DNA of 64,000 nt from Candidatus Accumulibacter necessarius (GTDB lineage Bacteria; Pseudomonadota; Gammaproteobacteria; Burkholderiales; Rhodocyclaceae), in assembly GCA_017302435.1 (NCBI GenBank), contig JAFLDL010000024.1, positions 1 to 64,000 of the forward strand, read 5' to 3'. The notes beneath the pieces are model-generated. The model did not search any database. It was not told where the DNA came from and was given only the letters and a program-made list of their open reading frames with translations. A program made the position numbers and the translations under genes. Every line of letters begins with the position of its first letter. The first letter of the stretch is position 1. This document shows positions 2,181-44,759 of this stretch, piece by piece.

Positions 2181-5100
2181 ATGGGCATTTCCGGCCGCAT
2201 TGCCCGCTTCTTCGCCAGTTCGCAAATGACCCCGCTGCTGGCGCTCGTGGCGCTGTTGCTGGGCGTGTTCGCGACGCTGATCACACCGCGTGAGGAAGAG
2301 CCGCAGATCGACGTGACCATGGCCGACGTGCTGATTCCCTTTCCCGGCGCGTCGGTGCGCGATGTCGAGAACCTGGTCGCGACGCCGGCTGAACAGGTGC
2401 TGTCGCGCATGTCGGGAATCGAGCATGTCTATTCGGTGTCGCGGCCGGGGCTGGCGGTGGTGACCGTGCAGTTCGCCGTTGGCGTCAAGTATGCCGATGC
2501 CGTCGTTCGCCTCTACGATACGGTGCATTCGCACCGCGACTGGCTGGCGCCGAACCTCGGCGTGCTCGAGCCGACGGTCAAGCCGAGAGGTATCGACGAC
2601 GTGCCGATCGTTTCGCTGACTTTCTGGACCGCCGACCCGGGGCGTTCCGCCTTCGACCTCCAGCAGGTGGCGCGCGCCGCCGAGACCGAATTGAAGCGTG
2701 TCAAGGGAACCCGTGATGTGTCTACGCTGGGTGGCCCCGATCACGTCGTGCGGGTGTTGATGGACAGCGAGCGGATGAATGCCCACGGTGTGACGCCGCA
2801 GGATCTGGCGGTGGCGCTGCGCGTCGGCAACGTACTGCAGTCCTCCGGCAGCCTGGTCGCCGGCAACCGCGAAGTCCTCGTCGAGACTGGTACCTACCTG
2901 GAATCAGCGGCGGACGTCAGGCAACTGGTGGTCGCCGTGCGCGGCAACCCCGGCGAGCGGAAGCCGGTGTTCATGGGCGATGTCGCGCGTGTCGAGGATG
3001 GGCCGGATCAGCCAGGCCGCTACGTCTGGCTGGGCAACCGTGATGGCGAGTTTCCGGCAGTGACCGTGCAGATCTCCAAAAAGCCGGGCGTCAACGCTGC
3101 CGACGTCGCCAACGCCGTGATCGAGCGCGTCGAATCGCTCAAGGGCACCTTGATTCCCGAGGGAATCGAGGTCACGGTGACCCGTAACTACGGCCAGACG
3201 GCGACCGACAAGGCGCAGAAGCTGATCGGCAAGCTGGTCTTCGCCACTGCTTTTGTCGTCGTGCTGGTCTTCTTTGCGCTCGGACGGCGCGAGGCGTTGA
3301 TCGTCGGCGTCGCGGTCACCCTGACGCTCTCGGCGACGCTGTTTGCCTCCTGGGCCTGGGGATTCACACTCAATCGCGTCTCGCTGTTCGCGCTGATCTT
3401 TTCGATCGGCATCCTGGTCGACGACGCTATCGTCGTCGTGGAAAACATTCACCGCTGGCAGATACTGCAGCCCGGTAAGCCGTTGCTCGAAATCATCCCG
3501 CTGGCGGTTGACGAAGTGGGCGGGCCGACGATTCTTGCCACCTTCACCGTGATCGCCGCACTGTTGCCGATGGCTTTCGTGACCGGCCTGATGGGGCCGT
3601 ACATGAGCCCGATTCCGATCAACTCTTCGCTGGGGATGTTCATTTCGCTGGCCATTGCCTTTGTCGTGACGCCGTGGCTGGCGGCACGCCTGCTGGCCAG
3701 CCCGGCGCACGCGGCGGCGCATGATGCCGCCGCTGGCTCGCCCGCCGCTGGCCGGCTCGACCGCCTGTTCCGTCGCCTGCTGTCGCCCTTCCTCGACCCG
3801 CAGCACGGCCAGAAGGCGCGCCGCTGGCTGCTGCTTGCCATCCTGCTGTTGATCCTTGGCTCCGTATCGCTCGCCGCGTGGAAGCTGGTCGTGCTCAAGA
3901 TGCTGCCCTTCGACAACAAGAGCGAGTTCCAGATTGTTCTCGACATGCCGGTCGGTACGCCGCTCGAGGAAACCGCGCGGGTCTTGCGGGAAATCGGCAG
4001 CGAGGTGGTCAAGGTCCCGGAAGTGAGCGATTACCAGGCTTATGCCGGGACCGCCAGCCCGATCAACTTCAATGGCCTGGTGCGTCAGTACTACCTGCGG
4101 GCGGCCCCGGAACTTGGCGACCTGCAGGTGAACCTGGTGGACCACAGGCAGCGCTCGCGGCAGAGTCACGAAATTGCCACGTCAGTGCGCGATGCGGTTG
4201 AGGCGATTGGTCGCCGCGCCGGCGGCAACGCCAAGGTGGTCGAAGTCCCGCCCGGGCCACCGGTTCTGTCGCCGATCGTCGCCGAGGTGTATGGGCCGGA
4301 CTACCGCGGCCAGATCGCGGTGGCCGGAGAAGTGCGCCGGGTGTTCGAGGCAGATCCGGATCTGGTGGCGATCGACGATTCGGTCACCGCCGACGGCAGC
4401 AAGACGATTCTGCATGTCTTGCAGAACAAGGCGGCGCTGCTCGACGTCGCACAGAGCGACATCGTCGACGTGGTCCGCATGGGCTTGGCCGGCGAAGACG
4501 TCACGCCGGTGCATAACACCGATTCGAAGTTCGAAATTCCGGTACGGTTGACCTTGCCCGCCGAGCAGCAGAGTTCGCTCGACGCGTTGCTGAAGCTGCG
4601 CGTCCGCTCGCGCGACGGCCACCTGGTCCCGGTCTCGGAGCTGGTCGAAGTGCGCGAGCTGCCGCGAGAGAAAGTGATCTACCACAAGGACCTGCTGCCG
4701 GTGGTCTACGTTGTCGCCGACATGGGCGGCAAGCTTGATTCACCGCTTTACGGCATGTTTGCTGCACGCGGCGACATCGTTGGCCGGCCGCTCGACGGCC
4801 TCGAAGGCGGTGCCGGTACGCTTGGCGAATACTTCATCCGCCAGCCGGCCGCTCCCGACGCCGGCTACAGCATCAAGTGGGACGGCGAGTGGCAGATCAC
4901 CTACGAGACCTTCCGCGACATGGGCATTGCCTACGGCGTCGGCCTGATCCTGATCTACCTGCTCGTCGTCGCCCACTTCAAGAGCTATCTGGTGCCGCTG
5001 ATCATCATGGCGCCGATCCCACTGACCATCATCGGCGTCATGCCGGGGCACGCGCTGCTTGGCAGTCAATACACCGCGACCTCGATGATCGGCATGATCG

Positions 5101-37798: not shown

Positions 37799-38416
37799 GA
37801 CCTCTCCTGTCTCACTTTTGGTGGGCACAATTGGCAACACGCGTGGAATCTAAGGCATATCTTCTGTTATAGACAATTACGTATGCGCAATCGTTTCGCA
37901 GATCAAGGGCCGGGACTGAAAAAGCCTAGCAAGGTCCTCGCGGTCTTTTCGGCTTGCGTGGAAAGCTTAGTTCCCGCCTCATGTTTTGGCTTGTCTGGCA
38001 TCTGCCGAAGCCGATGAGCGGGTATGGCCTATTCAGGTTTTCGATCGCGTCAGCACGTCTGTGATGCCACCCCTGCGAGCGATGTTTGTCCAGGACAAAT
38101 AGACGCCAAAGCGAACGTGTCCGGCGCAGCAGGACTCGCTGTGGAGGCCACTCTCCCGGAGGCTTCACGGCCTCGGCAAGCCAATTCGCAGCTTGCCGTG
38201 ATCGGCGCCGGCAGCGTCGCTGAAACTCTCCTGCACGCCTTCATACAACTGGGCGGCAGACTGCTGGCGCCATGCCGACACTGAATTGCCCGTCGGCGGG
38301 GGGTGCGCCTGGGATGCGCAGTTCGGCTGGGGTCTCTGTCGCGACTGGATCAATGGCGGAAGGGTGCAGGGCACCTGGCTCAGCGGCCGGCAACTGGCGC
38401 TCCAGGTAGTAGCAGG
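37799..38416. other. Gene-free interval upstream of the SDR gene
   Basis: About 620 bases in which no reading frame looks coding: candidate frames are short, arginine- or proline-rich and unlike any family. The SDR promoter probably lies near 37850, where the sequence turns AT-rich. The rest could be a decayed gene. Confidence 0.5.
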
Positions 38417-38475
38417 CAGAAGTGCTCCGTTTCGATCAGCGGGCCCTCACCCGAAAGGCTGATCATTTCTGATTG
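38417..38475 (-). repeat. Dispersed repeat, family 1, copy 2
   Basis: Matches the copy at 35057-35115 with the same internal spacing and the core GCCCTCACCCGAAAGGCTGATCA. It overlaps the stop codon and last codons of the lipoprotein gene that ends the kinase operon. It may act as a 3' end signal. Confidence 0.55.
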
Positions 38476-39017
38476 ATGACCACCAGACTCACGCTGCGCT
38501 GAAACTGCAACGTGCCACCCGAAAAAGCGACTTCCACAGCATATACACCAGGTGGCGCCGCCGCCGGGATGCCGATGAATGCGTCGAGCTGCCACTTGCC
38601 GGGCTTCAGCTCGAAACGACGTGAAACGTCCTCGAAGACCGTATTACCCTTCAACGTGATGCGGCGGGAAAGGTCACCGATTACCACTTCTCCTGTGCGC
38701 AGTGGGCACATCGAATAGACCATGCGGTGACTGAACTCGTCGCCAGCGGTGACCCGCGGTGGCAGTACCTCGTTCAAGTCAATGTCGACGAAGGGACGTT
38801 GCAGCTTGGCGCACTGGCGCTCTTTCCAGACTACGTCGGGATGGCTGACAAGCTTCTCACCGGGCTTGCGCATCCCCTTTTCCATGCGCCAGAGCCAGGA
38901 CTGGACAGTGTCAGCCGGGCCAAGGCCCTGTCCAGTGGCACAGGCGGCGAGCAGCACGGCGCTGGAACTGACCAGCAGAGTACGCCATGGCGAGTTGGTT
39001 GCGGAAGCGCTGTTCAT
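38463..39017 (-). CDS. Lipoprotein ending the kinase/phosphatase operon, unknown family
   Basis: 184 residues from the ATG at 39017, which overlaps the kinase stop codon (ATGA). The signal peptide ends in VLLAACATG, a good lipobox. The mature region looks beta-rich (GEVVIGDLSRRITLKGNTVF, RRFELKPGKWQLDAFIGIP, GVYAVEVAFSGGTLQFQRSV), like an Ig or beta-sandwich domain, and has two cysteines (RQCAKL, YSMCPL) that could form a disulfide. I do not recognise a family. Translational coupling to the kinase suggests it is the periplasmic component of this signalling unit. Confidence 0.75.
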   Translation of the reverse strand: MNSASATNSPWRTLLVSSSAVLLAACATGQGLGPADTVQSWLWRMEKGMRKPGEKLVSHPDVVWKERQCAKLQRPFVDIDLNEVLPPRVTAGDEFSHRMVYSMCPLRTGEVVIGDLSRRITLKGNTVFEDVSRRFELKPGKWQLDAFIGIPAAAPPGVYAVEVAFSGGTLQFQRSVSLVVINQK

Positions 39018-40429
39018 TTTCGTATGGTCCATCCTCCCGCCGAACCGGACTCGTCACGCTTGACCACCGGCGGGTTTGGGTCGGTGCGGACACTGGGCTG
39101 TTGCGGAGGTGCGGCCTTTGCTCGTGACTTTGCCGCCACCTTTTCTTGCGAAACAGAACTGGCGTGCTCGGTCACGCGCTCGCGAGCCGCGGGCGCCGGG
39201 GGCGGCAAGGGGATCGCGGCCGGCACCGACAGGGAGGCACTGGCCGGTGGAATCGGATCGCGCACCGCTGGCCCACTGAGGGCAGGTGCCGGTGAAGGTT
39301 GGGGCGACGGGGGCGCGGGCGGGACGCTCGCCTGAGGCTGCTGCGCCGGGCTGGCACGCACTTCTGCCGGTGGGGCCGGAGTCTTGCTACCGCTCCACCA
39401 GGCCAGACCACCGAGCACCAGCAGCGCGCAAACCAGCGCAACGACGCCCGGGTATTTCTTCCAAATCGCCTGTCCGGGCAAAGCGCCGAGGGTTTCCGTT
39501 GCTGCCACCGGCGGCACAACGCTGCCGTTTGTCGCGGTGACCGTTCCGCTCGGCGGGGTGATCATTCGTGTCTCTGGGACGGCACGGGGAGCCACGTCAC
39601 CCACCGGCGCAGCGTTGGCGAGAACCCCGTCGAGCGCGCTGCGAAACGCGCTGGCGTCCGGGTAGCGTTGCGCGGGATCCTTCGCCAGCGCTCGCGACAG
39701 GATATTCTCAAGCACTGGCGGAACGTCACCCACGAGCTGGCGCAGCGGTGGCGGTGGCGCCTCGATCTGCGCTTTCATGATTTCAAAGTCGGTCCCCTCG
39801 GCGAAGGGGACTCGCCCGGTCACCAGTTCGAAAAGGACGACGGCCAGCGAGTAAAGGTCCGAGCGGGCGTCGACATCCCGGCCTTGAACCTGTTCAGGCG
39901 ACATGTACTCCAGCGTCCCGATCAGGTGCCCGCTGCGTGTCAGGCGCATCTTCTCGAGAATTCGCGCGATGCCGAAATCCATCAACTTCAGCGATCCGTC
40001 CACTGCCACCATCATGTTTGCGGGCTTGATGTCGCGGTGTACGACGCCGGCGTGGTGCGCGTGTTCAAGCCCGCTCAATGCCGCGATTCCGTAGCGTATG
40101 GCTTCCTGCCACGGCAGCGCGCCGCGGCGGGTGACGAGCTGGTCAAGCGTTTCGCCGGCGACAAATTCCATCACCATGTAGTACTGGTCGCCGTGGCGGA
40201 AGAAACGATAGACACCAGCGATGTTCGGATGATTGAGGCGAGCCAGAGCGACGGCCTCAGTTCGAAACCGCTCGAGGATATCTGCGCGCGCAGCAAGTTC
40301 CGGGCGCAGCGACTTGATCGCGACATCTCGCTCCAGCATCGAGTCGCGGCCCTTGAAGACCTCGCCCATGCCGCCCTCGCCAATCTTGGCAACAAGTTCG
40401 AAATCACCGATCACCTGATTGCCCATCAT
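39014..40429 (-). CDS. Transmembrane Ser/Thr protein kinase (Hanks type)
   Basis: 471 residues. The kinase domain occupies about 10-270: glycine loop IGEGGMGEV, Lys39 (VAIK), HRDIKPANMM at 131-140, DFG at 151-153, and APE replaced by SPEQ. A transmembrane helix follows near 327-346, then a proline/alanine-rich periplasmic tail with no recognised sensor domain. All catalytic residues are present. It shares start/stop overlaps with the PP2C gene upstream and the lipoprotein downstream. Substrates are unknown, but the FHA protease of the same operon is the obvious candidate (inference). Confidence 0.94.
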   Translation of the reverse strand: MMGNQVIGDFELVAKIGEGGMGEVFKGRDSMLERDVAIKSLRPELAARADILERFRTEAVALARLNHPNIAGVYRFFRHGDQYYMVMEFVAGETLDQLVTRRGALPWQEAIRYGIAALSGLEHAHHAGVVHRDIKPANMMVAVDGSLKLMDFGIARILEKMRLTRSGHLIGTLEYMSPEQVQGRDVDARSDLYSLAVVLFELVTGRVPFAEGTDFEIMKAQIEAPPPPLRQLVGDVPPVLENILSRALAKDPAQRYPDASAFRSALDGVLANAAPVGDVAPRAVPETRMITPPSGTVTATNGSVVPPVAATETLGALPGQAIWKKYPGVVALVCALLVLGGLAWWSGSKTPAPPAEVRASPAQQPQASVPPAPPSPQPSPAPALSGPAVRDPIPPASASLSVPAAIPLPPPAPAARERVTEHASSVSQEKVAAKSRAKAAPPQQPSVRTDPNPPVVKRDESGSAGGWTIRK

Positions 40430-41259
40430 TTGCCCTCCATCTGGCCAGCGAGCATCTCCCGTGTCACCGGCACCGGCTTCTCCCCTGCATTGGCGGGTCG
40501 AACGGCAACGACGCCGACGGAAATGTTGTCGCTGCCGTCCCGCTCGCGCGCAAGCTCGATCAGCCGCCGACAGGCAGCCTGGGGGTCAGAGGATTCCACC
40601 ACCTGGGCAATCTCGCTCGGCTCGATACTGTCGTACAGGCCATCGGAGCAGAGCACGAAGCAGTCGCCGACCTCCGGCCGGTCGCTGCTCTGGGCGGTGA
40701 CAATCAGATCGGGGCGGGTGCCCAGGGAACGTAGCAGCACACTGCGCTCCGGGTGATGGCGTGCCTGCTCAGCCGTGATCAGCCCATCGCTCACCATCTG
40801 TTGCACGAGCGAGTCATCCCTGGTCAGTTGCGTTACCCGGCCATCAGAAAGCCGGTAAAGGCGGCTGTCACCCACATGCACAAACAACACCCGCTGCCCG
40901 ACCAGAACCAGGGCCGTGACCGTGGTCCCCATCCCCATAAGCGTCTCGTTCGCCTCAGCCGCGCAAAAAACCGCCGCATTGGCTTTGCGAAGCGCTCCTT
41001 CGATCGCCCGCTGAGGATCGTCATCCGGCGTGGCGAAGTATTCACGGCAGATCGTCTCCACCGCCAGTCTGCTCGCCACCTCGCCGCCGTTATGCCCGCC
41101 CATGCCATCCGCCACCACCGCCAGCACGCCTCGCCGATGACGTTCGTCGTGATTGCCGGGGGAAACGAAAGCGATCGCGTCCTGGTTGCCGGTTCGCACG
41201 CAGCCGATGTCCGTGGCCATGCAGGTCTCGACAGTGTAATACGCCGGTGCCTCCGTCAT
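40426..41259 (-). CDS. PP2C-family Ser/Thr phosphatase
   Basis: 277 residues from the ATG at 41259, 7 bases after the preceding kinase stop; longer starts at 41310 or 41352 would overlap that kinase. PP2C motifs are complete: GCVRTGNQDA, VVADGMGGHNGGEVAS, FVHVGDSRLYR, LCSDGLYD and SDNISV. It would remove phosphate from Ser/Thr residues placed by the flanking kinases. It is soluble, without a membrane segment. The order kinase-phosphatase-kinase with overlapping junctions indicates a single regulatory unit. Confidence 0.95.
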   Translation of the reverse strand: MTEAPAYYTVETCMATDIGCVRTGNQDAIAFVSPGNHDERHRRGVLAVVADGMGGHNGGEVASRLAVETICREYFATPDDDPQRAIEGALRKANAAVFCAAEANETLMGMGTTVTALVLVGQRVLFVHVGDSRLYRLSDGRVTQLTRDDSLVQQMVSDGLITAEQARHHPERSVLLRSLGTRPDLIVTAQSSDRPEVGDCFVLCSDGLYDSIEPSEIAQVVESSDPQAACRRLIELARERDGSDNISVGVVAVRPANAGEKPVPVTREMLAGQMEGK

Positions 41260-41266
41260 CGACGGC

Positions 41267-42523
41267 TCACTGTCGCCCTGTCGGTCGGAGCTGCCAGGCC
41301 AGAAACTCATTACCGATCTGGCGAACCTCGAACTCCACGTGTTCATCTTCATGCCCCTCTCGCTTGAGGATCAATGCAACATGGGCGCCTACCGGATACC
41401 GCTTTTCGAACACGATCGCCGTCGTGCCAAGCAGCTTTCCATCTTCGTAGATATCTGCCGGGCCGTCTATGGTACCGATGCGCACCAACCTCAGCGAGGC
41501 ACCCTGGGGCTCGGCAGGGAGCGCTTGCTCGGCGTTTGCCTTGGGCGGGGAGTCCGTCGCGGGATCCGGACGCAACTTCCAGAAGAACCCGGCCAGCACC
41601 ACGCCGGCCAGCAGCAGTCCGGCGCCAAGCAGAGGCCAGTTTTCCGGCAAGGCCGACCGCGAGTCTGATCGAAGCCGGCTCTCCACCGGGGTACGGGCCG
41701 GCGGTGACCGACCCGGTGTCGGGAGATCGTCGAGCAGTGCACGGGCGTCAGCATAGCGCTCGGCAGCATCGCGGCGAAGGCAGCGCCCGACAATGCGCAT
41801 CAGATCGCCCGACAGCGGCGACGACAGAGTCGGGGTACGGTACTCTGCCCGGGTGATGCGATCGCAGAGTACACCCACCGAGTCGGCTGCGAACGGCATG
41901 TTCGCAGTCAGCATCTCGTAGAACAGCACGCCCAGTGACCAGACATCCGCTCGCGCATCAGCCGACTTGCCCCTGATCTGTTCGGGAGCTAGGTAATCCA
42001 TCGTGCCGACGCAGCCGCCGACCATCGTCAGCTGCCTGCTGCTGGGATCCCTGGCAATGCCAAAGTCGAGCAGCTTGACCTGTCCACTCGAACCCAGCTT
42101 GATGTTCGACGATTTGATGTCCCGATGGAGAATGCCGCGCTCGTGGAGATAGGCGATCGCTTCAACCACGGAACGAAAGACGGCGAGCGCTTCGTCCCCC
42201 GGCAGGCCGGCGCGAGTCTGCTGTATGCGATCATGGAGGGAAATGCCGTCAACGTACTCCATGATGATGCACGGACGCCCTTCAAACTCTACGAAATCAT
42301 AGAGTTCGGCAATATGGGGATGGTGCAGCCCGGCCTGGATTCGCGCCTCGTTGACGAAGCGCTCGGCCAGGCGCAGCCCGGGCTCGACACGCGCGAGTAT
42401 CTTGATGGCAACGACACGCCCGATCCTCGAGTGAACCGCACGGTATACCTCGCCCATGCCACCTGCCCCGAGCGATTCGAGTAGACGGTACTCGCCGATC
42501 ACGGCGTTGGCGAGAGTCGTCAT
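41267..42523 (-). CDS. Transmembrane Ser/Thr protein kinase with PEGA-like C-terminus
   Basis: 418 residues. The glycine loop is LGAGGMGEVYRA, Lys41 is in VAIK, HRDIKSSN is at 133-140, DFG at 153-155 and LAPEQ at the activation-loop end. A transmembrane helix spans about 297-316. The periplasmic tail contains a PEGA-like segment (ADIYEDGKLLGTTAI, YPVGAHVALILKREGHEDE), a fold often linked to envelope sensing or binding. It is distinct in sequence from the other kinase of the operon, so the pair is not a recent duplication. It begins 29 bases after the FHA protease gene. Confidence 0.94.
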   Translation of the reverse strand: MTTLANAVIGEYRLLESLGAGGMGEVYRAVHSRIGRVVAIKILARVEPGLRLAERFVNEARIQAGLHHPHIAELYDFVEFEGRPCIIMEYVDGISLHDRIQQTRAGLPGDEALAVFRSVVEAIAYLHERGILHRDIKSSNIKLGSSGQVKLLDFGIARDPSSRQLTMVGGCVGTMDYLAPEQIRGKSADARADVWSLGVLFYEMLTANMPFAADSVGVLCDRITRAEYRTPTLSSPLSGDLMRIVGRCLRRDAAERYADARALLDDLPTPGRSPPARTPVESRLRSDSRSALPENWPLLGAGLLLAGVVLAGFFWKLRPDPATDSPPKANAEQALPAEPQGASLRLVRIGTIDGPADIYEDGKLLGTTAIVFEKRYPVGAHVALILKREGHEDEHVEFEVRQIGNEFLAWQLRPTGRQ

Positions 42524-42552
42524 GAGCCGTCGGCGCCCGCGCAGTCAATTGC

Positions 42553-44667
42553 TTACTGGATCACGGCCTTGACTTCCATCAGATCCTTGGCGAACTTGAT
42601 GGGCACCGCGAAGGTAATGGTCGGGTTACCGGCATAAAAGATCCCGACCACCCGACCGCGTTCGTCAAAAACCGGACCGCCGCTGTTGCCCGGACCGGTG
42701 GCGTTGGCAGTCAGCTGATAGGAATCGGACTCGCTGTAGTAATCACCTGTTGCACCGCCAGTCCGGGTCACCGTGCCGCGTATCACCTTGCCGATCGCCC
42801 CTGGCGTGACGGTCGGTACCGGTATGTCCACGATGGTCACGCCCGGATCGAGCATGTCCCTCGATTTGCCGGCAAAGAAAACCTTGGGGGACACCCCCGG
42901 GTAGCCGAGTACGGTGATCGGGTCGCCCGGTTTGACGCCACCATCGCCGCCCGACTCGGGTGCCAGCGGCGTGGGTTTGACCGCCGCCGGCGTGTCCACC
43001 TTGATCAGGGCCACGTCGTGCTCGTCCGAGACCCTGGCGAGTTTGGCAGGGATGCGCAGCTTGTTGTTGGCGAAAGTGACCTCCAGCCGGTCATGCCGTC
43101 CGGCAACCGGCTTCTGCTCACCGAGGGGCGTTTGCGACCAGACGCTTTGTTCCGGATACCAGCGGTGCTCGGGAACCTTCTCGACGGCGACCAGTTCCTT
43201 CTTCTGGTTGAATTCGAGCCGCACGCCCGCCGGTAGCACATGGGCGGTCTTCCACGGGGCAGCGACATGCCGATTGGTCAGGATGAAGCCATTCTCGGTC
43301 ACGGCGAATCCCGATCCGGAGTGGCTGCCGCCGATCGGCACGCTGTTCTTCTGCGCCTGGGGTGTCAATACCGGCTCCAGGTCACCTTTCGGCGTCCGCA
43401 CGTAGGCCGGCTTGCCTTGCCAGGATTGGTGATACAGCGGTTGCCCCGAAGCAAGGTCAATCAGCTTCCAGCTCACTTCGATGTATACCGTCGATCCTGA
43501 ATAGGCCGCGGCAATTTCCTTCGGCGTCATGACATCCTGCATTGCCTTGACTTTCGACGCGGTCGCCTCCGATTGCGATTTTGCGGCCTGGACCTGCGAA
43601 CTGGTCGCCTCGATCTTTTTGTCCGTCTCCCGGCCGATGAAGATGAAAGCGCCGACCACGACGGCTACCAGCGCCAGCACCCCTGCCACGATGTTGACCA
43701 TCGACTTGCGCGATTCCACCTTGGTCTCCGTGATCAGCCGTTCAACCGTCTCCTTGCCCACTCCGCGCACGCCGGGCGTCATCGCCGAGGCACCGGCTGT
43801 CTCGCTGCCGGTGTTTGCAGCCGCGGCCGGGGCGACCGTCGCCTCCCGCGTCTTCGCTGCCTCGCGCAGATCGAACTGACGCGTCGCCCGCAGCGCGTCG
43901 GCAGGCGGCGGATCGAGCTGGAACGTGAGCTCTGGCCCACCAGCGCCGAACTGAATGAGGTCACCATGGTGCAGTGTGAGACTGTCGCGGATCCGCGCGC
44001 CGTTGACGAATACGCCGTTTCGACTGTTGAGGTCGACGAGCGTAAACCCCTTCTGCTGCGAATCGCGCTTGATCGTCGCATGGTTGCGGCTCACCGTATC
44101 GTCGCGCTCGGCGTCGTAGGAGACGCTGGCAGCAGGGTCGCGTCCGAAGGTGATCTCGGTTGTCGGCGCAACCGGGAAGCTCACCTCCTGGTTCGCTTTC
44201 GAGCCGGTCATGTGCCGGAGTACCACGCGTTGCGGCCGTACATCGGCGCTCGCCGCCGTCCCCAGCGAAATCTCCCGGGTGGGTGTTCCCTGCCTGAGAT
44301 CAATCTGGCGTGTCGCCTTCGGCGTCAGGGCAGGCGGCGGGTCCATCTGGAAGCTGAATTCCGGGCCCCCGGCTCCCAGCTGAACGACGTCGCCGTGATG
44401 CAGCGCTGTGCTGCCGGCTATCCGCGACTGGTTGACGAAGACCCCGTTGCGGCTGCCCAGATCGGTGAGAATGAAGACCGTGTTCTGTGCAGGATCACGA
44501 GTGATTCTGGCATGGTTGCGACTGACCGCATCGTCACGCTCCATGTCGTAGGCGACGGTCGATGCCGCGTCTCGACCAAGCGAGATCTCCGGCACCTGGT
44601 CGAGGGGAAAACTGACCTCCTGGTTTGCTTTCGAGCCCGAAAGGTGCTTGATGACGACACGTTCCAT
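42553..44667 (-). CDS. Tandem-FHA, membrane-anchored trypsin-like serine protease
   Basis: 704 residues. Two FHA domains (about 4-105 and 147-250) carry the phosphothreonine-binding pattern: GRD, SRNHA, and (D/N)L(G/N)SRNG. A linker leads to a transmembrane helix at about 325-344, a short coiled region, and a trypsin/DegP-type domain with His467 (LTNRHV), Asp551 (DEHDVALIKVD) and Ser662 (GNSGGP). The topology should place the FHA domains in the cytoplasm and the protease in the periplasm. No PDZ domain follows. As the first gene of the operon with two kinases and a phosphatase, it is probably controlled by phosphorylation. Start supported by GGGAGG eight bases upstream. Confidence 0.93.
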   Translation of the reverse strand: MERVVIKHLSGSKANQEVSFPLDQVPEISLGRDAASTVAYDMERDDAVSRNHARITRDPAQNTVFILTDLGSRNGVFVNQSRIAGSTALHHGDVVQLGAGGPEFSFQMDPPPALTPKATRQIDLRQGTPTREISLGTAASADVRPQRVVLRHMTGSKANQEVSFPVAPTTEITFGRDPAASVSYDAERDDTVSRNHATIKRDSQQKGFTLVDLNSRNGVFVNGARIRDSLTLHHGDLIQFGAGGPELTFQLDPPPADALRATRQFDLREAAKTREATVAPAAAANTGSETAGASAMTPGVRGVGKETVERLITETKVESRKSMVNIVAGVLALVAVVVGAFIFIGRETDKKIEATSSQVQAAKSQSEATASKVKAMQDVMTPKEIAAAYSGSTVYIEVSWKLIDLASGQPLYHQSWQGKPAYVRTPKGDLEPVLTPQAQKNSVPIGGSHSGSGFAVTENGFILTNRHVAAPWKTAHVLPAGVRLEFNQKKELVAVEKVPEHRWYPEQSVWSQTPLGEQKPVAGRHDRLEVTFANNKLRIPAKLARVSDEHDVALIKVDTPAAVKPTPLAPESGGDGGVKPGDPITVLGYPGVSPKVFFAGKSRDMLDPGVTIVDIPVPTVTPGAIGKVIRGTVTRTGGATGDYYSESDSYQLTANATGPGNSGGPVFDERGRVVGIFYAGNPTITFAVPIKFAKDLMEVKAVIQ

Positions 44668-44730: not shown

Positions 44731-44759
44731 AGTGTAACCCAAGGTTCATCGACCTTCAA
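44731..44759 (-). promoter_or_regulatory. Sigma70-like promoter of the FHA protease/kinase operon
   Basis: On the minus strand TTGAAG and TACACT are separated by exactly 17 bases, about 60 bases before the protease ATG. Each hexamer matches the consensus at four of six positions. The 315-base gap (44668-44982) otherwise has no gene. It also contains a short palindrome GTGTCGACAC at 44786-44795, upstream of the promoter. Confidence 0.55.

Follow-up and report, generated by a model that had tools for sequence, protein, structure and literature searches.

The type VI secretion system (T6SS) threonine phosphorylation pathway is composed of PpkA, PppA, Fha and the lipoprotein TagQ. KKP modules contain the kinases PfkA and PfkB, in which a cold shock domain and a forkhead-associated (FHA) domain, respectively, are part of the same protein, and according to PMC11341870 more than 90% of them are located in temperate phage genomes. 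In the PknB-FhaA pair, an FHA protein docks on a phosphorylated juxtamembrane segment, as stated in PMC12077195. Here we describe an operon of five genes (positions 38463-44667, minus strand) identified in a stretch of 64,000 nucleotides (the window) from the draft genome of Candidatus Accumulibacter necessarius (contig JAFLDL010000024.1; genome of 4.56 Mb in 88 contigs). It encodes an FHA protein with a trypsin-like domain, two Ser/Thr protein kinases (STPK1 and STPK2), a PP2C phosphatase and a lipoprotein. Accumulibacter is known to remove phosphorus in wastewater plants. In the literature searched, which was mostly without subscription papers, we found neither a description of an FHA-protease signalling operon among the papers listed nor a paper linking the genus with the terms "forkhead-associated" or "threonine protein kinase". 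The operon is real and conserved, and as far as we searched it has not been described; it represents STPK/PP2C/FHA signalling with an unusual effector, and the mechanism proposed below is plausible on the evidence of the sequence.

The operon and its described relatives

The open reading frame (ORF) list bears out the layout given in the initial annotation, i.e. five genes transcribed in one direction, all on the minus strand, separated by gaps of 29 bases (protease/STPK1) and 7 bases (STPK1/PP2C) and joined by overlaps of 4 bases (PP2C/STPK2) and 19 bases (STPK2/lipoprotein), as calculated from the coordinates. The first gene (42553-44667) encodes a protein of 704 aa with the architecture FHA-FHA-linker-transmembrane (TM) helix-trypsin-like domain. 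It is followed by the genes of STPK1 (41267-42523), with a TM helix and a short tail resembling PEGA at best, the PP2C phosphatase (40426-41259), STPK2 (39014-40429), with a TM helix and a proline-rich tail, and the lipoprotein (38463-39032), with the lipobox LLAAC and Ala at position +2. The start of the PP2C gene was taken at 41259; the ORF list opens the same frame at an upstream ATG, 41352.

Both kinases match the Pfam family Pkinase (3.4e-56 and 9.1e-54). Hydropathy analysis predicted one TM stretch in STPK1; for STPK2 it gave two that overlap and were counted as one. The phosphatase matches PP2C_2 (1e-18) and, with 237.7 bits against a cut-off of 230, belongs to the Stp1 family (NF033484, NCBIfam). 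The residues known to be catalytic or metal-binding in these families are conserved: those of the kinases are invariant in 5/5 (STPK1) and 7/7 (STPK2) aligned sequences, and the PP2C aspartates D51, D131, D206 and D244 in 8/8 (loci L086-L088, introduced below, are outside both the STPK2 and the PP2C alignment).

The operon resembles the T6SS pathway in combining a membrane Hanks-type kinase, a PP2C phosphatase, an FHA protein and an outer-membrane lipoprotein, and its FHA region gives a weak match to TagH (TIGR03354, 55.7 bits). That it is a remnant or relative of this pathway is highly improbable, however: the TagH score falls far short of 120.25, the cut-off, a TM helix and a terminal trypsin fold set the FHA protein apart, and TssC/VipB, the only T6SS marker searched, was not found in the draft genome (the E. 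coli control was positive). The earlier statement that no T6SS genes are present thus holds for this marker, a T6SS link was rejected because of the missing TssC, and for this genome the T6SS reading appears largely refuted.

KKP modules resemble the operon in having two adjacent Hanks Ser/Thr kinases and a PP2C phosphatase in one operon, with an FHA domain in the system. The locus could accordingly be viewed as a KKP-type kinase-phosphatase toxin-antitoxin or antiphage module with the protease as an extra effector, and strong matches to PADLOC kinase models (PD-T4-6), a patchy distribution and transposase ORFs near two of the homologous loci (L013 and L018) agree with this. Nevertheless, we consider it improbable. 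In the window the order is kinase-PP2C-kinase, both kinases have a TM stretch and neither has a cold shock or FHA domain by Pfam, the FHA domains being located on a separate protease; KKP membership was rejected since these defining kinase fusions are missing. The PADLOC models seem to overlap Hanks kinases in general, judging from the many models matched. No phage gene was recognized by Pfam (PHROGs were not searched, and no search aimed at prophages was made) among five neighbours in the window and ten at other loci, two of which have no family. Further searches gave no lead: one of phages with the PP2C protein returned 28 records, all below 60% identity, and plasmid searches with the protease and the lipoprotein gave one FHA-only match and otherwise none.

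The protease shares with HtrA/Deg enzymes a trypsin-like domain with a His-Asp-Ser triad, and HTRA1 protease domains are its best matches among solved structures (2.2e-13). It differs from them in having its FHA domains before the TM helix, no PDZ match (Pfam, E 0.01) and scores far under the NCBIfam HtrA cut-offs; the earlier term "DegP-like" is therefore apt for the fold and otherwise loose. A membrane anchor combined with a periplasmic trypsin fold also characterizes MarP; the window protein scores 28.2 bits against the MarP cut-off of 250, and MarP is not known to have an FHA domain. An FHA protein reading a Hanks kinase has a precedent in PknB/FhaA (PMC12077195), but here the FHA protein is itself the protease, and the kinases, with no PASTA match by Pfam, score 256.5 and 331.9 against a PASTA-kinase cut-off of 450. 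Trypsin, kinase, PP2C and FHA parts all occur among the conflict systems presented in the accessible part of PMC7159879; this combination was not found there.

The FHA protease and its candidate phosphosite

Pfam located the FHA domain in two stretches of the first protein (1.3e-37), FHA domain 1 at 44371-44589 and FHA domain 2 at 43945-44154, and Trypsin_2 (3e-20) at 42598-43332. Between them, hydropathy analysis placed a single TM helix (43630-43707, approximate ends), so that the FHA domains are predicted to be cytoplasmic and the trypsin-like domain, with the triad H467, D551 and S662, periplasmic. The protein was aligned with its homologs from other loci, 11 sequences in total (the window, L013-L018, L027 and L086-L088; further loci carrying these genes come from the same genomes), which share 31-89% identity with the window protease. 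In all 11, the membrane-proximal FHA domain 2 retains G175, R176, S193, R194, H196, N217 and G218, forming the G-R, S-R-x-H and N-G signature known from FHA phosphothreonine readers. The catalytic triad is intact in 10/11 homologs, counting the Ser that the frame-broken L087 gene (5515-7220) encodes in its second piece; the two overlapping frames of this gene may reflect a sequencing error or decay.

The linker between FHA domain 2 and the TM helix is poorly conserved, yet the pair T262-R263, within the motif ATRQF (43873-43887), is invariant in 11/11 homologs, which makes T262 a concrete candidate phosphosite. A further TR follows it in ten homologs, a similar motif, ATRQI (44302-44316), is present after FHA domain 1, and a juxtamembrane G-x-x-T-x-E-R block including T307 is also invariant in the 11 sequences. 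Shuffling gives TR among the first 14 residues of the linker a chance probability of 0.06-0.16 in each lineage, with a product of about 2e-5 for five lineages if these are independent.

A motif similar to that of the linker, ETRMI (39560-39574), was found in the juxtamembrane segment of STPK2, where TR followed by M or L occurs in 5/5 orthologs from full operons. Five other kinase ORFs read from this genome all lack a stricter form of the motif (TR, then Q or an aliphatic residue, then a hydrophobic residue), which occurs once, in a cyclase domain, among six ORFs read at other FHA loci (one neighbouring PP2C included, a weak kinase match at L008 left out). In the activation loops of the kinases Thr likewise precedes Arg or Lys (LTRSG, LTKTG, TTRTG), which fits TR-type sites as kinase targets and proves nothing. 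At another locus of the same genome (L076, G000:C5), a PP2C ORF adjoins another FHA gene.

We tentatively propose, at close to an even call, that the operon products form a module that signals through phosphothreonine across the membrane, and that its effector is a trypsin-like periplasmic protein, held by a membrane anchor and gated inside-out. STPK2 would autophosphorylate and would phosphorylate the Thr that precedes Arg in the cytoplasmic linker of the protease, that is T262, which all examined homologs have; in the tandem form, T119 behind FHA domain 1 would be another target, and the juxtamembrane motif of the kinase itself might be phosphorylated too. The FHA domains would bind the modified threonines in cis, from one protease copy to another, or on the kinase, and this binding could cluster or reorient the TM helices and so alter the state of the periplasmic domain, i.e. 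gate the protease from the inside. PP2C would reset the switch. In the Accumulibacter clade, STPK1 may add a second sensing input, and the lipoprotein in the outer membrane may act as an adaptor, inhibitor or substrate. If true, the module would connect the reading of phosphothreonine with a protease domain beyond the inner membrane, which would be a new output or input for bacterial Hanks-kinase signalling. The switch is also defined and testable, as it involves one threonine, one FHA arginine and one catalytic serine, and a catalytically dead variant is available in nature.

That variant, the L088 homolog (2238-3872), is one of several points that weigh against the proposal. All three of its triad residues are replaced (H to D, D to A, S to N) while the FHA domains, PP2C and kinase are kept; by its residues this FHA-TM-trypsin protein is a natural pseudoprotease, and proteolysis is therefore not a universal output. 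The TR motif was picked after the alignment had been viewed, the shuffle test treats the lineages as independent, and the residues after TR differ in L018, L086 and L087 (QA, EA). The TR segment of the kinase is gapped in L018 and L027, has no counterpart visible by eye in L086 and L087, and is represented in L088 only by a TR where the kinase domain ends. The module is also rare, a full-length protease being present in 6/28 Accumulibacter genomes and 2/398 genomes of a phylum draw. The strict form of the reading given in the initial annotation is weakened by the absence of STPK1 from 5/11 loci, with a mere remnant in a sixth, and by the lack of a homolog of the window lipoprotein, by tblastn, in L018, L086, L087 and L088 (the contigs of L027 and L016 end inside the kinase gene, which makes the look-up there impossible). 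In the initial annotation both kinases were thought to sense the envelope through periplasmic tails and to phosphorylate a target bound by the FHA domains, so as to switch an outside protease, with the lipoprotein as sensor or substrate. Conserved synteny, intact FHA, kinase and PP2C residues and the missing TssC/VipB lend this reading partial support, and the lost triad in L088 likewise speaks against its strict form.

The same parts can be read in the opposite direction. The trypsin fold would then be mainly a periplasmic sensor that binds peptides or cleaves a ligand, the TM helix would relay its occupancy or self-cleavage to the FHA domains, these would recruit or release the kinase, and the output would be cytoplasmic phosphorylation of other targets. 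The triad loss in L088 favours this outside-in sensor, and the variable periplasmic tail of kinase 2 across its alignment agrees with it, as does the variety of unrelated lipoproteins accompanying the module (that of the window, glycine-zipper proteins in L018, L086 and L087, and an OmpA-like one in L088). However, the triad is intact in the other ten homologs, suggesting that catalysis is usually kept, and the operon encodes no cytoplasmic target; we consider this alternative the less likely of the two. Returning to the inside-out module, a broader claim can be made from it, namely that FHA-TM-trypsin proteins constitute a new class of transmembrane signalling proteins, each forming a self-contained module with a PP2C and a Hanks kinase, in which a phosphothreonine of the protein's own linker gates a periplasmic protease and which serve as pseudoprotease sensors in some lineages. 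We regard this as possible, with the balance somewhat against it.

Distribution and conservation of the module

The full five-gene block, in the same order and on one strand, is present in the window and in L013, L014, L015 and L017, that is in 5/28 Accumulibacter genomes. Searching genome contigs with the protease identified four loci, in Candidatus Accumulibacter contiguus, A. vicinus, an Accumulibacter metagenome-assembled genome and a 4 kb contig labelled Actinomycetota (L016). The latter was counted as a locus and not as a genome of the genus; its kinase 2 fragment is 96% identical to the window protein over 113 residues, and it is probably a wrongly binned Accumulibacter contig. An arrangement composed only of the protease, then PP2C and one kinase, without STPK1, was found in divergent form in a sixth Accumulibacter genome (G518), and also in G472, G1297, G1357 and G1308, four of the 125 genomes examined from another family of the order.

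The genes for protease, PP2C and kinase are adjacent in 11/11 protease-encoding loci (in L016 with a remnant of STPK1 in between), and we therefore consider the FHA protease, PP2C and STPK2 to be the core of the module. Conserved synteny, by which the initial annotation proposed to check its grouping, is thus confirmed by five full operons and by this core adjacency. Before other genomes were compared, the null assumption was that the genes are chance neighbours without a shared function. No support for it was found; it was rejected in view of the conserved order, the differing flanks and the core adjacency, and its probability is very low.

The flanks were compared with blastn. Counting from the first ATG, the window is similar to L013 between -92 and +6192 and to L015, piecewise, between -2 and +6102; neither comparison gave a match in the flanking DNA that it covered. 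At the DNA level, similarity to the window does not reach beyond the operon, and the flanks of the window are shared with none of the other four full-operon loci. L014 and L017 are collinear over 15 kb, L013 shares pieces of the upstream side with both, and L015 shares with L013 only one upstream piece of 343 bases. Since the flanks differ among the full-operon loci, the block is located in at least two genomic contexts, and probably three.

The junctions of kinase 2 recur in four orthologous operons, with overlaps of 1-4 bases with PP2C and 19 bases with the lipoprotein gene. dN/dS values of 0.08-0.26 were obtained in 15/15 comparisons (five genes in 3 of 10 possible genome pairs), indicating that the operon genes are under purifying selection. 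Operon identity to the window (blastn, longest piece) is 80.4% in G522, 79.6% in G541, 79.1% in G018 and 74.8% in G538, with corresponding recA identities, for this one core gene, of 85.4, 86.6, 85.3 and 83.7%. G538 is the furthest from the window by both measures; the other three differ little and are not ranked in the same order. Recent transfer behind the patchy distribution is not supported by this comparison, which tests it weakly. The G518 copy has a single FHA domain and shows 38-40% protein identity, which does not fit its recA identity of 84.5%, and it may therefore represent a separate subfamily.

Beyond the genus and phylum counts given above, full-length relatives of the protease were found in 2/150 genomes of a family draw, 2/369 of a class draw (plus one FHA-only protein), 2/399 of an order draw and 4/125 of the second family (one frame-broken). 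The draws overlap and those at genus, family, class, order and phylum level each include the genome of the window; the large ones score 2-7 candidates per genome, so that the absence of a match means less there than it does for the genus. All stay within one phylum, and other phyla may also have an FHA-trypsin protein. In the genus, 25/28 genomes have some match to the protease at 1e-6, and six have a full-length one. Partial, trypsin-only proteins (G019, G1037, G1082, G1159), weaker HtrA-like matches and an FHA-only protein (G250) were not counted as homologs.

Accessory genes, upstream element and flanking DNA

Judged by its distribution, STPK1 is an accessory gene; in L016 only a fragment of its tail lies between the protease and PP2C genes. 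The "PEGA-like" tail ascribed to it earlier is supported by a match of the PEGA model in one of five STPK1 orthologs, and not by the window's own STPK1. In the lipoprotein, L-L-x-A-C-A is invariant in 5/5 orthologs, and Ala at +2 presumably directs it to the outer membrane by the Lol rule. It has no Pfam family, and the best hit in a search of solved structures had an E value of 0.38. In L018, L086 and L087 a glycine-zipper lipoprotein is encoded after the kinase instead, followed in L018 (4756-5148, by Pfam) and L087 (1053-2498, by an N-terminus that looks similar) by a DUF4062-type gene. In L088 an ORF located about 230 bases before the protease gene reads, by eye, like an OmpA-type lipoprotein.

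Near the end of the kinase 2 tail, the stretch PNPPVVKR (39056-39079) precedes the overlap with the lipoprotein start and is largely kept in the five full operons, with IPPVVRR in L015. It is possibly a ligand or substrate peptide.

A sigma-70 scan of the window detected no promoter at 9/12 or better. The single promoter-like site of the initial annotation is confirmed only in part: a 29-base element, TTGAAG-17-TACACT (44731-44759, minus strand; 8/12 by our count), recurs in each of the five full operons, on the upstream side of the first start codon and at a distance of 81-93 bases from it. It is kept even in L015, whose upstream region has otherwise diverged, and was not found on the L016 contig. 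A pattern built from these sequences matched once in the window and not at all in 100 shuffles. The element resembles a weak sigma-70 promoter. Nine terminator-like sites were counted against 4.6 expected (sd 2.3); six of them are on the coding strand within operon genes, and they were given no weight, although they may be genuine.

About 55 bases past the end of the operon there is a decayed stretch (38249-38408). Similar DNA is located upstream of the same short-chain dehydrogenase gene in 5 of 14 further loci retrieved by means of that gene. The operon thus appears to border a truncated gene remnant.

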